Shown here: positions 17,015 through 20,445 of the stretch, piece by piece
How positions within the stretch are numbered: the stretch's first letter is position 1
Layout of the letters: each line of letters opens with the position of its first letter
Source: Neorhizobium huautlense
GTDB lineage: Bacteria; Pseudomonadota; Alphaproteobacteria; Rhizobiales; Rhizobiaceae
Direction: 5' to 3'
DNA length: 64,000 nt
NCBI RefSeq assembly: GCF_002968575.1
Contig: NZ_PVBM01000006.1
Span: 124,001-188,000, forward strand
Notes under the pieces: model-generated
Told to the model about the DNA's origin: nothing
Databases searched by the model: none
Seen by the model: only the letters and a program-made list of their open reading frames with translations
Translations under genes and position numbers: made by a program

Positions 17015-18007
17015 TTATGCCGCATCCGCCGGCGTAACCTCCACCGTGATATGCGACAGGTTCGTCATCGCCCGGAGTTTCTCCTTATAAAAGGAAGGCG
17101 GCCGCGGTTTGGGCGTTATCAGGGCGACGATCGCCGCATGATGCCCCGGCCCCACCTGCCAGACATGCAAGTCGGCAATCCGGTCTTCCTCCGTTTCCAC
17201 GTGCCGGCGGATTTCGCCGGCAAGGTCATCGTCATCCGGCTGGGCATCCAGGAGAACCCCGGCGGTGGCGCGGATCAGTCCCCAGGACCAGCGCGCGATC
17301 ACGAGCCCCCCGACAATGCCCATCACCGGATCGAGCACATCCCAGCCGTAGCTGCGTCCGAGGATCAGCGCTAGGATCGCCAGCACCGAGGTCAGCGCGT
17401 CGGCCAGCACATGCAGGTAGGCCGCGCGCAGATTGTGGTCTTCGGCATGATGGGCGTGATCGTGTCTGCCGTGATGATGGCCGTGGTCGTCGCCGTGGCG
17501 ATGGCCGCCGTGATGTCCATGGGCATCACGATGATGGTGATGGCCATGATGGTGATCTTCTCGCAAAAGCCAGGCACTCAGCAGATTGACCCCCAGCCCC
17601 AGGATGGCGACCAGAATCGCCTGGTCGAAATCGATCGGAACAGGACGGGCGATACGAATGGCGCTTTCCCAAGCGATCAGAAGCGCGATCAGCGCCAGCA
17701 CGATGGCACTCGCAAATCCCGCAAGATCGCCGAGCTTGCCCGTCCCGAAGGTGTAGCGCGGATTGCGGGCCTGCCGACGGGCGTAAACATAAGCGAGCGC
17801 CGAAATCAGCATCGCACCCGCATGCGTCGACATATGCCAGCCATCGGCCGTCAACGCCATCGAACCGAAGATCGAACCGGCGGCGATCTCCGCCACCATC
17901 ATCGTTGCGGTCAGCGCAATTACCAGCCAGACCCTGCGTTCGTTGCGCTCGTGATCGGCGCCGAGAAATACGTGGTCGTGCTTCAACTCTTCGACGGAAT
18001 GGGCCAT
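17015..18007 (-). CDS. dmeF: Cation diffusion facilitator, Co/Ni efflux (DmeF)
   Basis: This 330-residue inner-membrane antiporter has six membrane helices, a first-half metal motif at D55-H58 (TADGWHMSTH), a very His-rich cytoplasmic loop (152-191) and the second-half motif HVLADALTS. A C-terminal ferredoxin-like domain ends in HITVEVTPADAA. Pairing with an RcnR-type repressor 30 bases upstream marks it as DmeF, which exports cobalt and nickel in rhizobia, rather than a zinc exporter. GGGGAG precedes the ATG. Confidence 0.9.
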   Translation of the reverse strand: MAHSVEELKHDHVFLGADHERNERRVWLVIALTATMMVAEIAAGSIFGSMALTADGWHMSTHAGAMLISALAYVYARRQARNPRYTFGTGKLGDLAGFASAIVLALIALLIAWESAIRIARPVPIDFDQAILVAILGLGVNLLSAWLLREDHHHGHHHHRDAHGHHGGHRHGDDHGHHHGRHDHAHHAEDHNLRAAYLHVLADALTSVLAILALILGRSYGWDVLDPVMGIVGGLVIARWSWGLIRATAGVLLDAQPDDDDLAGEIRRHVETEEDRIADLHVWQVGPGHHAAIVALITPKPRPPSFYKEKLRAMTNLSHITVEVTPADAA

Positions 18008-18037
18008 CGCGGTTCTCCCCTTTTTTGTCGACCCCGG

Positions 18038-18310
18038 TTAGCGGATATAGGTTCTGAGCGCCTCGGCGAGTTCTTCCGCCGCCTGCGCCCTCTCTTTCTC
18101 ATTTACAGCGTGCAGAACGTGCTCATGAAGGTGATCCTCCATCACTTCGCCGGTGAGGCCGGCGAGCGCGCCGCGAATCGAAGCCAGCTGACGCAGCACT
18201 TCGCCGCAAGGCGCCTCCGCCTCCAGTGCCCGTTCGACCGCCTCCATCTGCCCCTTCAATCGGCGCACCCGCGCCAGAAGCTTTGACTTTTCCCGAATGG
18301 TATGGGCCAT
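18038..18310 (-). CDS. dmeR: Metal-sensing repressor DmeR (RcnR/CsoR family)
   Basis: This is a 90-residue all-helical repressor. The four RcnR nickel/cobalt ligands are present at family positions: H3, C35, H60 and H64. Metal binding should release it from the G-tract operator just upstream and so induce dmeRF. It is co-transcribed with dmeF. Confidence 0.92.
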   Translation of the reverse strand: MAHTIREKSKLLARVRRLKGQMEAVERALEAEAPCGEVLRQLASIRGALAGLTGEVMEDHLHEHVLHAVNEKERAQAAEELAEALRTYIR

Positions 18311-18330
18311 GAGTTGCTCCGAAAGGTAAT

Positions 18331-18347
18331 ATAGGGGGGTAGGCTAT
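18331..18347. promoter_or_regulatory. DmeR operator
   Basis: ATAGGGGGGTAGGCTAT has a six-G tract flanked by ATAG and CTAT, as expected for RcnR/CsoR-family operators. It lies 21 bp upstream of the dmeR start. Assignment is from pattern and position. Confidence 0.6.
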
Positions 18348-18384
18348 TTGGAGTCTCATCAGAATGCAAATCGGGTCATGCCGT

Positions 18385-18591
18385 CTAACGCGAAGACGTA
18401 CCCCCCACGAAGGAGCCGCCTCCTTCCCGCTCGTCCCAGTGCCGCCGATCCGCCGGCGAACGCCTGAGGACCTCTATCGCCAAGACCAGCCAGAAACCGG
18501 CAGCGATGGCGACGAGCACCCAGAAGGCCCGGAAATGACCTCTGGAAAATTCTTCGAACCTGCCGTGGCAATATCTGCAGCTTGCGTCCAT
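18385..18591 (-). CDS. 68-residue CxxC membrane protein under MerR-type control
   Basis: This small protein starts MDASCRYCHGRFEEFSRG with a CxxCH pair in its first ten residues, then one membrane helix (about 22-42), then a Ser/Gly-rich tail. GGAGAGG precedes the ATG. Its promoter, at 18631-18661, has the 19-bp spacer and dyad of MerR-activated promoters, and the divergent gene encodes a ZntR-like MerR protein. A role in binding or moving a soft metal is inferred. CxxCH could also suggest heme c, but there is no exported signal peptide and the Cys pair precedes the helix. Confidence 0.65.
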   Translation of the reverse strand: MDASCRYCHGRFEEFSRGHFRAFWVLVAIAAGFWLVLAIEVLRRSPADRRHWDEREGGGSFVGGTSSR

Positions 18592-18630
18592 GACGTCACC
18601 TCTCCGCTTGCGCCTTGTTCAGTGACCACT

Positions 18631-18661
18631 TAGATAATTCCTATAGTCACTAGAGCTTCAA
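18631..18661 (-). promoter_or_regulatory. MerR-family promoter/operator with 19-bp spacer
   Basis: On the minus strand a -35 box TTGAAG (18656-18661) and a -10 box TATCTA (18631-18636) are 19 bp apart. The spacer holds the dyad CTCTAGTGACTATAGG, like operators of ZntR/CueR-type activators. It faces the CxxC gene; the merR gene begins 15 bp away in the other direction. Confidence 0.75.
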
Positions 18662-18675
18662 GAGGAATTTTCGCC

Positions 18676-19092
18676 ATGTTGTCGATCGGCAGTCTCTCAA
18701 AACGCACGGGCGTGAAGGTACCGACCATTCGCTACTACGAGCAGATGGGCCTCTTGAAAGCGGCCGAACGCTCGGAAGGCAATCAGCGGCGCTACGAAAG
18801 GAGCGATCTGGAGCGGCTTGCCTTCATCCGCCATGCCCGCGACCTCGGCCTCGACATTCCTGCAATCCGCGAGCTCATCCGATTGAGTGAACATTCGCAG
18901 CAACCCTGCGCCGATGCCGACAGGATCGCCGCCGAACATCTGGCGGCGGTGCGCGAAAAGATCGTAAGGCTGAGGAAGCTGGAGCAGGAACTCGACCGGA
19001 TCGTCTCCCATTGCGACGGCGGCCATTCGATCGAGGAATGTTACGTGATCCGCGCCCTGTCGGATCACGGACTTTGCGAGAGTGAGCACTAA
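18676..19092 (+). CDS. MerR-family heavy-metal sensor (ZntR/CadR/PbrR-like)
   Basis: This 138-residue regulator has a winged helix (MLSIGSLSKRTGVKVPTIRY), a long dimerization helix and metal ligands C78, C113, H117 and C122, which align with the ZntR/CadR zinc/cadmium/lead sites. A GAGGA site precedes ATG 18676. It is divergent from the 68-residue CxxC gene and should activate it by twisting the 19-bp-spacer promoter. Read-through could also reach dmeRF. Confidence 0.9.
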   Translation: MLSIGSLSKRTGVKVPTIRYYEQMGLLKAAERSEGNQRRYERSDLERLAFIRHARDLGLDIPAIRELIRLSEHSQQPCADADRIAAEHLAAVREKIVRLRKLEQELDRIVSHCDGGHSIEECYVIRALSDHGLCESEH

Positions 19093-19119: not shown

Positions 19120-19125
19120 TTGACA
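19120..19125 (+). promoter_or_regulatory. Putative -35 box of the leader-peptide transcript
   Basis: CTTGACA (box TTGACA at 19120-19125) lies at a distance that would place the transcript start at about the leader ATG (19155), giving a leaderless uORF as known for alphaproteobacterial trpL. The -10 (CATTCA region) is poor. Confidence 0.35.
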
Positions 19126-19154
19126 AGTTCCTCGATCGGGAGCATTCAACGCAC

Positions 19155-19208
19155 ATGATCAAGACGCGCACCATCATCGCCTGCTCGTATTTTTGGGCCT
19201 ACCTCTAA
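19155..19208 (+). CDS. Leader peptide of a transcription attenuator
   Basis: This is a 17-codon ORF, MIKTRTIIACSYFWAYL, whose last residues are rich in aromatics (Y, F, W, Y). Its stop codon directly abuts the first strand of alternative hairpins. GGGAG lies 12 bases upstream, or the mRNA may be leaderless. It precedes a GNAT gene by about 105 bases. Ribosome stalling within the peptide would expose the antiterminator strand. Confidence 0.6.
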   Translation: MIKTRTIIACSYFWAYL

Positions 19209-19260
19209 GGGGCGGCTCGACAGATCATCATGTCAACAAGCCGCCGTCAGGCGGCTTTGT
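19209..19260 (+). promoter_or_regulatory. Attenuator: competing antiterminator and terminator hairpins
   Basis: AGCCGCC (19239-19245) can pair with GGCGGCT at 19211-19217 (antiterminator) or with GGCGGCT at 19250-19256 (terminator, loop GTCA, then TTTGTT). The first GGCGGCT begins three bases after the leader stop codon. A ribosome finishing the peptide would therefore hide it and favour the terminator. Confidence 0.65.
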
Positions 19261-19313
19261 TCATGAGAAACGGCACCCTGACGGCGAAATAAGACCGAAA
19301 AAGGATGCCGGAA

Positions 19314-19802
19314 ATGACCGAAGATACCGAAATCTCACTGCTCAGACCGCCCGTTGTGACGATCCGCAGCGCGAAATCGCGAGACCTGCCAGAACTCAAC
19401 GAGATGATCGCGGCGCTGGCCGCCCATCACAACGACCCCGCCGCCATCACGCCCGAAAAGCTAGAACGCGACCTTTTCGGTGCCATGCCCTGGATCACCG
19501 CGCTTGTTGCCGATACCGGTTCGGGATTGATCGGTTACGCCATTCTCGTGCCCCTCTACAGGGCCCAGGAAGGCACACGCGGCATGGACCTTCACCATCT
19601 TTTCGTGCGCGACGGTCATCGCGGCCACGGCATCGGCCAGCACCTCGTCGCCCGCGCCCGCGAAATCGCCAAGAACGCCGGCTGCGACTACCTTTCGGTC
19701 AGCGCCGCGACCGGCAATTTCGCAGCGCACCGCTTCTACGAGCATATGGATTTCAAGCCGCGCCCGGTGACCGGCATGCGCTATATGCAGGCGCTGGCAT
19801 AA
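19314..19802 (+). CDS. GNAT family N-acetyltransferase
   Basis: This 162-residue acetyl-CoA-dependent acyltransferase starts at ATG 19314 (AAGGA eight bases before); ATG 19305 is too close to that site. Motif A, DGHRGHGIGQHLV near 105-117, is the acetyl-CoA loop; FYEHMDFKPR forms motif B. The substrate is unknown. The attenuator upstream suggests expression responds to translation speed, such as low aminoacyl-tRNA or a ribosome-targeting drug. Confidence 0.88.
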   Translation: MTEDTEISLLRPPVVTIRSAKSRDLPELNEMIAALAAHHNDPAAITPEKLERDLFGAMPWITALVADTGSGLIGYAILVPLYRAQEGTRGMDLHHLFVRDGHRGHGIGQHLVARAREIAKNAGCDYLSVSAATGNFAAHRFYEHMDFKPRPVTGMRYMQALA

Positions 19803-19821: not shown

Positions 19822-20154
19822 CTATCCGGCCGCCTTGGCCAGTACCTCTCCTGCCCACTCATTCAGGCTTTTACCGGCAAGTTCCGCAGCTTGAGCGGCG
19901 CGCCTATGGATTTCGGGGCTCACGCGGAACATCATCTTTCCTGAATAAGGTTTCTGCGGTTCCTTACCGACTTTGGCACAGGTCTCGATATAGTCGTCGA
20001 CCGCTTCACGAAAAGCAGTCCGCAGTTGGTCCACACTATCCGCGTGGAAACCGACACCGTCGCGGATGCCGGAAATCTGGCCAAACAGGATGCCGTCCTC
20101 GTCATCGTATTCAATACGAGCGGAGTAACCCTTGTAAGTCATTACATTCGTCAT
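19822..20154 (-). CDS. hicB: HicB-type antitoxin
   Basis: This 110-residue protein has an N-terminal HicB fold (YKGYSARIEYDDEDGILFG) and a C-terminal ribbon-helix-helix (FRVSPEIHRRAAQAAELAG) for DNA binding and autoregulation. Its ATG overlaps the stop of hicA. It neutralises the adjacent HicA mRNA interferase. Confidence 0.9.
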   Translation of the reverse strand: MTNVMTYKGYSARIEYDDEDGILFGQISGIRDGVGFHADSVDQLRTAFREAVDDYIETCAKVGKEPQKPYSGKMMFRVSPEIHRRAAQAAELAGKSLNEWAGEVLAKAAG

Positions 20155-20405
20155 GGCATTATCCCTAGACGGATCAAGTAAGTACGTGCTGCACGCACTT
20201 GATAGCGCTTTGCTTCCTTAGCTGGATGCGGTCGATGGAAAGTCTCGATCTCCCCGTCCCTGTCAAAACGGACACGAGACCCGCTCCCCTCAATGACGAC
20301 GCAACCAGCAGCAACAAGCAAGCTCTCGATAGCCGCCCATTCGAGCGTTCCGGATACCGGATCCCTAAAGACAGCTTCCAGTGTCTTGCGGTGCTTGCCG
20401 TTCAT
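20151..20405 (-). CDS. hicA: HicA-type toxin
   Basis: This 84-residue protein from ATG 20405 has a dsRNA-binding-like fold. It has the family's GSGSRVRF segment (in place of the GSHH form that carries the catalytic His in many HicA) and FHRPHPAKEAKRYQVR. HicA toxins cleave mRNA. The toxin gene is first and the antitoxin second, coupled by ATGA at 20151-20154. Activity cannot be judged from the missing GSHH histidine alone. Confidence 0.87.
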   Translation of the reverse strand: MNGKHRKTLEAVFRDPVSGTLEWAAIESLLVAAGCVVIEGSGSRVRFDRDGEIETFHRPHPAKEAKRYQVRAARTYLIRLGIMP

Positions 20406-20445
20406 ATAAACAAAGTAGTAGATGATAGCATTTTTTGCAAGCACC

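Follow-up and report, generated by a model that had tools for sequence, protein, structure and literature searches.

The window, the whole 64,000-nucleotide stretch of Neorhizobium huautlense DNA that was analyzed, includes a gene for a GNAT-family N-acetyltransferase. A short leader open reading frame and a series of complementary RNA elements lie between this gene and a predicted promoter, all on the same strand:

19120-19148, plus strand: predicted promoter, TTGACA (19120-19125), a 17-nt spacer and CATTCA (19143-19148), with the predicted +1 at ~19155.
19155-19208, plus strand: leader ORF MIKTRTIIACSYFWAYL-TAA, 17 codons with an ATG start; the stop codon adjoins element 1.
19188-19196, plus strand: putative control codons TAT TTT TGG (Tyr12, Phe13 and Trp14), with the conserved codons at -6/-5 from the stop.
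19209-19217, plus strand: element 1, GGGGCGGCT, with GGCGGCT at 19211-19217; GCGGC is invariant in the orthologue alignment, and the element is also supported by occlusion folding.
19219-19234, plus strand: small hairpin GACA...TGTC inside the loop between elements 1 and 2, seen in the fold, with a nearly invariant GATC core.
19238-19245, plus strand: element 2, AAGCCGCC, with AGCCGCC at 19239-19245; its possible partners are element 1, element 3 or, in part, element 4.
19238-19262, plus strand: predicted intrinsic terminator, composed of element 2, the loop GTCA, element 3 (GGCGGC, 19250-19255) and the T tract TTTGTT.
19277-19285, plus strand: element 4, CCTGACGGC, complementary to GCCGTCAGG (19243-19251) and competing with the terminator.
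19271-19310, plus strand: element 5, a predicted hairpin in which CGGCA (19271-19275) pairs with TGCCG (19306-19310) and CCU (19277-19279) with AGG (19302-19304).
19314-19802, plus strand: GNAT-family N-acetyltransferase (Pfam Acetyltransf_1, E 2.7e-15).

The GNAT protein scores 57.1 bits against Acetyltransf_1, for which the gathering cut-off is 20.7. The start codon at 19314 is probably the correct one rather than that at 19305, because AAGG at 19301-19304 is well spaced from it and the orthologues begin with MTED. None of the NCBIfam curated function models was reached by this protein. Antibiotic and arsinothricin acetyltransferases were considered and rejected, the scores being far below the cut-offs (26.9 of 140 bits for AAC(6') and 29 of 170 for ArsN1), and no glyphosate acetyltransferase was found among the solved-structure sequence matches. 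The original prediction was that the enzyme might be a drug or metabolite acetylase, and the drug-acetylase part of it gained no positive support. Among solved structures, the closest are those of SSAT and thialysine acetyltransferases, represented by 2bei (E 1.3e-8) in the sequence comparison and by 3bj7 and 2bei in the comparison of the predicted fold. The structure model is of moderate confidence (pLDDT 74), and identity to the solved relatives is 23-28% over the aligned part; these matches give weak hints of a small amine substrate.

A divergent metal module occupies positions 17015-19092. It is composed of a DmeF cation efflux gene and an FrmR/RcnR-type repressor gene on the minus strand and of a MerR-type (CadR-like) regulator gene on the plus strand, directly upstream of the leader. 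Just 3' of the GNAT gene, a HicB/HicA-like toxin-antitoxin pair is present at 19822-20444 on the minus strand; HicB- and HicA-like genes were found near the GNAT gene in a minority of orthologous loci (18/80 and 14/80, respectively). The neighborhood was considered as a clue to function and was set aside: a MerR regulator, dmeRF metal efflux, cytochromes c and HicAB are frequent there, with no obvious tie to aromatic metabolism.

Using the GNAT protein as a query, 200 genomes of the same family were searched. The leader was found upstream of all 42 GNAT orthologues examined (47-100% identity, Rhizobiaceae), and upstream of 80/80 named GTDB loci from Neorhizobium, Rhizobium, Ciceribacter, Shinella, Pseudorhizobium and others. 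In Ak57, a strain of the laboratory model Sinorhizobium meliloti, the leader MIKNAPISSVYFWLFR lies directly upstream of the GNAT gene. Two paralogues with ~30% identity lack the leader. A more distant GNAT (36% identity) from Paracoccus marcusii has a leader ending in ...IVNYYRRLN. In another family, a 31%-identical GNAT has a leader with ...AVYFTSAI, and a 45%-identical GNAT has the degenerate leader MINALKIARY. No leader was found for seven GNATs (32-39% identity) in other families, one in Methylobacterium and one in Roseibium. The Paracoccus marcusii locus, with the Tyr-Tyr leader MCMNAASIVNYYRRLN at locus positions 1075-1189, is on plasmid pCP157_04, and thus the unit of attenuator and GNAT is found on a plasmid as well.

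The leader peptide is 16-17 amino acids long and starts with ATG in all 117 distinct orthologous leaders. An aromatic pair occupies positions -6/-5 from the stop in every one of them (Tyr-Phe in 116 and Tyr-Tyr in 1). Trp is present in 116/117, at -4 in 109 and just before the aromatic pair in 7, and all three aromatic residues occur together in 116/117. The rest of the C-terminal part varies, as in YFWLYL, YFWAFR, WYFTLLP and WFYYANLP, with LYL, AFR, TLLP and GYR as the last residues. Position -6 is always Tyr, encoded by TAT in 114/117 leaders, and Phe at -5 is encoded by TTT in all 116 leaders that have it. In the downstream GNAT genes, the usage of TAT is 23% and that of TTT is 6%, and Tyr or Phe at -2 of the leader is nearly always encoded by TAC or TTC. 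TAT and TTT are therefore non-preferred codons kept exactly at the control positions, which suggests selection on codon identity and not on the amino acid alone. The original prediction had assigned a possible role to both the aromatic cluster and a Cys residue; the cluster is conserved in 117/117 leaders, while Cys is found at its position in only 58/117.

The promoter is placed with similar regularity. TTGAC is located 34-39 nt (mostly 35-36 nt) 5' of the leader ATG in 116/117 distinct leaders, the spacing to the -10-like hexamer is 17-18 nt in most leaders, and this hexamer ends 5-7 nt 5' of the ATG in most of the 117. From this placement, transcription is predicted to begin at the leader ATG, so that the leader mRNA is likely to be leaderless. 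The spacers known for MerR promoters are longer than 17-18 nt, and control of the leader promoter by the neighboring MerR protein was set aside on this ground.

The coordinates and pairing of GGCGGCT, AGCCGCC and the second GGCGGCT (19250-19256, followed by TTGTTC) were given correctly in the original prediction. The leader was described there as ending three bases before the first GGCGGCT, which in fact begins two bases after the stop codon. The hairpin of elements 1 and 2 has a folding energy of -17.4 kcal/mol (z -3.5 against shuffled sequences), and the terminator hairpin of elements 2 and 3 has -15.1 kcal/mol (z -4.7), so both fold far better than shuffles. The complementarity between elements 1 and 2 is invariant, the GC stem of the terminator is paired in all aligned sequences, and the antiterminator and terminator pairings are mutually exclusive. 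A search for any GC-rich 7-mer followed by its reverse complement, the same 7-mer again and then T revealed a single case in the 64-kb window, the switch described here, against 0.02 expected per random 64-kb strand. An Rfam scan of the window gave no family match above the gathering score.

Whether the leader codons are suitably placed was analyzed by occlusion folding of the 117 leaders, in which the bases under the ribosome footprint were kept unpaired. With the Tyr, Phe or Trp codon in the A site, the mean probability of pairing between elements 1 and 2 is ~0.8 once element 2 is transcribed. The probability falls to 0.00-0.01 when the A site holds the stop codon or the codon just before it, and the turning point is codon -2. 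The aromatic codons are thus placed where an attenuator of the trp type needs them. When element 3 is present, equilibrium folding favors the terminator at almost any ribosome position; the switch must therefore be kinetic and act by trapping, which is an assumption of the model.

Upstream of the orthologues, the reading frame, the position of its stop codon, the aromatic codons and the hairpins are all conserved, as the original prediction of amino-acid attenuator logic before a GNAT gene had called for, and that prediction is strongly supported. The features of a ribosome-dependent attenuator that can be addressed from sequence were all found at this locus. The element is most probably a trp-type, leaderless, ribosome-dependent transcription attenuator of the GNAT gene, which would sense charged aromatic tRNAs and raise expression when their supply is low; we give this reading a probability of about 0.84. 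In the proposed mechanism, the RNA would begin at the leader ATG. When aromatic amino acids are ample, the ribosome would reach the stop codon and cover element 1, elements 2 and 3 would pair, and transcription would end at ~19258-19262. When charged tRNA for Tyr, and then for Phe and Trp, is scarce, the ribosome would wait at TAT-TTT-TGG and leave element 1 free to pair with the emerging element 2, so that the terminator is pre-empted. Several points count against this reading: the terminator prevails at equilibrium, so that kinetic trapping is needed; its T tract is interrupted (TTTGTT); the tyrS, trpS and tyrA genes of the same genome have no such leader; and the chemistry of this GNAT is not known to be linked to aromatic amino acids.

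Beyond the original prediction, element 4 (19277-19285) and the hairpin over the ribosome-binding site (19271-19310) were recognized. The complement of element 4, GCCGTCAGG, runs from the last bases of element 2 through the loop into element 3. The helix between this region and element 4 covaries: direct counts and RNAalifold gave 9 cells with double changes against 2.3 in shuffled alignments, a score reached by 0/500 shuffles, with changes from GC to AU five times and from UA to CG three times, although these counts come from related sequences and are not independent events. Over 98 distinct sequence pairs, element 4 pairs better with its own partner than in any of 200 permutations. This helix is proposed for the GNAT leaders of Rhizobiaceae only, because it is individually not above chance in many leaders of tyrS, tyrA and the second GNAT lineage described below.

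In the element 5 hairpin, the AGG at 19302-19304 is part of the ribosome-binding site of the GNAT gene. The two arms change together among the orthologues, as in CGGCA/TGCCG, GCGTCC/GGACGC, GCTTCCC/GGGAAGC, GCATCC/GGATGC and GGCTCC/GGAGCC, and over 91 distinct combinations, the native pairing exceeds that in each of 300 permutations. Elements 4 and 5 have CC in common, and thus they compete. In the proposed mechanism, element 4 would pair with the freed loop region and help to keep the terminator open, and since its CC is also used by the hairpin masking the ribosome-binding site, it would probably also free the translation of GNAT. A second lock, on translation, is therefore probable for the GNAT genes of Rhizobiaceae.

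Control could be imagined at the level of translation only, with the element 5 hairpin setting a constant low level of GNAT and the terminator being unregulated. This hairpin (-15.7 kcal/mol) is indeed the most stable of the hairpins relative to shuffles (z -5.2), and equilibrium folding yields the terminator in nearly all states. Such control would leave element 1, its fixed distance from the stop codon and the target-matching aromatic codons of related leaders unexplained, and its probability is little better than negligible. The element could also be chiefly a source of a leader sRNA or peptide acting in trans, as are rnTrpL and peTrpL of S. meliloti, with attenuation in cis being secondary. 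The leaderless design and the terminator match those of rnTrpL, whose products act in trans (PMC7298713). The covariation at the GNAT locus, however, extends beyond the terminator as far as the ribosome-binding site of the GNAT gene, which is best explained by control in cis, and the element is always directly upstream of the GNAT gene. A primary role in trans is accordingly regarded as highly improbable.

With two covariance models, R1 built from the GNAT leaders and R2 including also the first relatives found, relatives of the leader were sought in 397 genomes of the order and in 385 of the class. In the genome that contains the window, there is one copy of the element only, and its own tyrS, trpS and tyrA genes have no such leader; in this species, the element is thus not part of a visible tyrosine regulon. 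In other genomes, leaders of the same family precede several genes of aromatic amino-acid metabolism. The tyrS leaders, such as MIKNAPIAANYYATLP, MITTAPIAARYYATFP and ...VYFYYVT..., were matched by a model not built from them (E 8e-15 to 1e-13). Genes for tyrA-type prephenate dehydrogenases have leaders with ...TYYRPLT and ...LYYAPLP. In the fifteen tyrS and seven tyrA leaders, Tyr is present and Trp is absent. Two leaders of DAHP synthase genes (...NYWYFSF... and ...SYFWYFSYDS...) contain Tyr, Phe and Trp; these appear to belong to an attenuator of the first step in the aromatic pathway. The leaders of trpS have Trp codons (FIWWRSF, FYWPSP and RWWRS), and trpE-type leaders ending in WWWAR are also matched by the covariance model. 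The tyrS, tyrA and DAHP synthase leaders share with the GNAT leader the start (MIKNAP...), the GCCGCC/GGCGGC terminator and the stop codon right before element 1; several of them encode longer peptides.

The codon content of the leaders follows the target gene, and sensing of codons is therefore favored over a target-independent arrest peptide stalled by a drug. In an arrest mechanism of the erm, cat or TnaC style, a nascent chain with ...YFWxxx would stall the ribosome together with a small molecule and induce a detoxifying GNAT. Conservation of the peptide is highest in its C-terminal part, whose distance from the stop codon is constant, many GNATs are resistance enzymes, and the nearest solved structures are acetyltransferases of small amines, all of which would fit such a mechanism. 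An arrest peptide is expected to be conserved independently of the amino acid relevant to its target, whereas homologous leaders differ in their residues according to the target, with Tyr before tyrS and tyrA, Trp before trpS, and Tyr, Phe and Trp before DAHP synthase. Even among the GNAT leaders, the final residues are highly variable, and the GNAT stays far short of the cut-off of every curated drug-acetylase model, as described above. This mechanism is judged very unlikely. Of the two triggers for stalling considered in the original prediction, a shortage of charged tRNA is in agreement with codons that track the target gene, while an antibiotic received no positive support.

The attenuator family also includes genes outside biosynthesis. 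A second GNAT lineage, only remotely similar to the first, has leaders with ...WYFTPLT; the WYFT leader was found at 27/30 loci, and two of the three loci without it are truncated. This lineage occurs in other alphaproteobacterial families, and many genomes have two such GNAT genes in tandem. Small stand-alone S4 proteins have a leader with ...WYFTLHT. At three loci, S4-domain-like proteins of ~87-92 amino acids are encoded behind WYFT, AYFT or YYYWF leaders of the attenuator family, and two of the three show a weak match to the C-terminal domains of TyrRS.

Amino-acid attenuators are expected before genes for biosynthesis, transport or aminoacyl-tRNA synthetases. Since Tyr/Phe/Trp attenuators precede at least two distinct lineages of GNAT genes as well as a gene for a stand-alone TyrRS-like S4 protein, it is possible, while still doubtful, that Alphaproteobacteria keep a non-biosynthetic response to starvation for aromatic tRNAs, in which the GNATs act on something relevant when aromatic aminoacyl-tRNAs fail. 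If so, the targets of the GNATs could be such as an amino-acid analogue, an inhibitor of aminoacyl-tRNA synthetases, or the aminoacyl-tRNA itself. The deeply conserved attenuator would tie an uncharacterized acetyltransferase to the supply of aromatic amino acids, and it offers a route to the GNAT substrate, by asking what becomes acetylated as Tyr, Phe or Trp run short. The related leaders point to a wider, apparently unreported Tyr/Phe/Trp attenuator family in Alphaproteobacteria, covering tyrS, tyrA, DAHP synthase, trpS and S4 proteins, with a predicted leaderless start. In the open-access literature searched, no description of the attenuator was found; since older attenuator surveys in subscription journals fall outside this scope, the GNAT member can be called new with more certainty than the members before tyrS, tyrA and DAHP synthase.

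Among known systems, attenuators of the erm and cat type are similar to the GNAT leader in having a short ORF and alternative hairpins before a possible modifying enzyme. The known ones are operated by a drug-stalled nascent chain, whereas in the family of the GNAT leader, the codons follow the amino acid that matters to the gene behind them. Compared with classical attenuators, the GNAT control cluster consists of one Tyr, one Phe and one Trp and has fewer repeated codons, which counts against the attenuator reading.

The closest likeness is to the trp attenuator of Rhizobiaceae. In S. meliloti, the RNA rnTrpL begins with the leaderless leader ORF trpL, and a short peptide with the sensed codons, a terminator, and antitermination by a stalled ribosome complete the system (PMC7298713, PMC10117765). 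The GNAT leader differs in that its codons are Tyr-Phe-Trp instead of Trp-Trp-Trp, its target is an acetyltransferase instead of a biosynthetic gene, and an extra covarying hairpin covers the ribosome-binding site of the target. What sets the GNAT leader apart from the trp attenuator is thus the target, the mixed Tyr-Phe-Trp codons and, probably, the second lock on translation.
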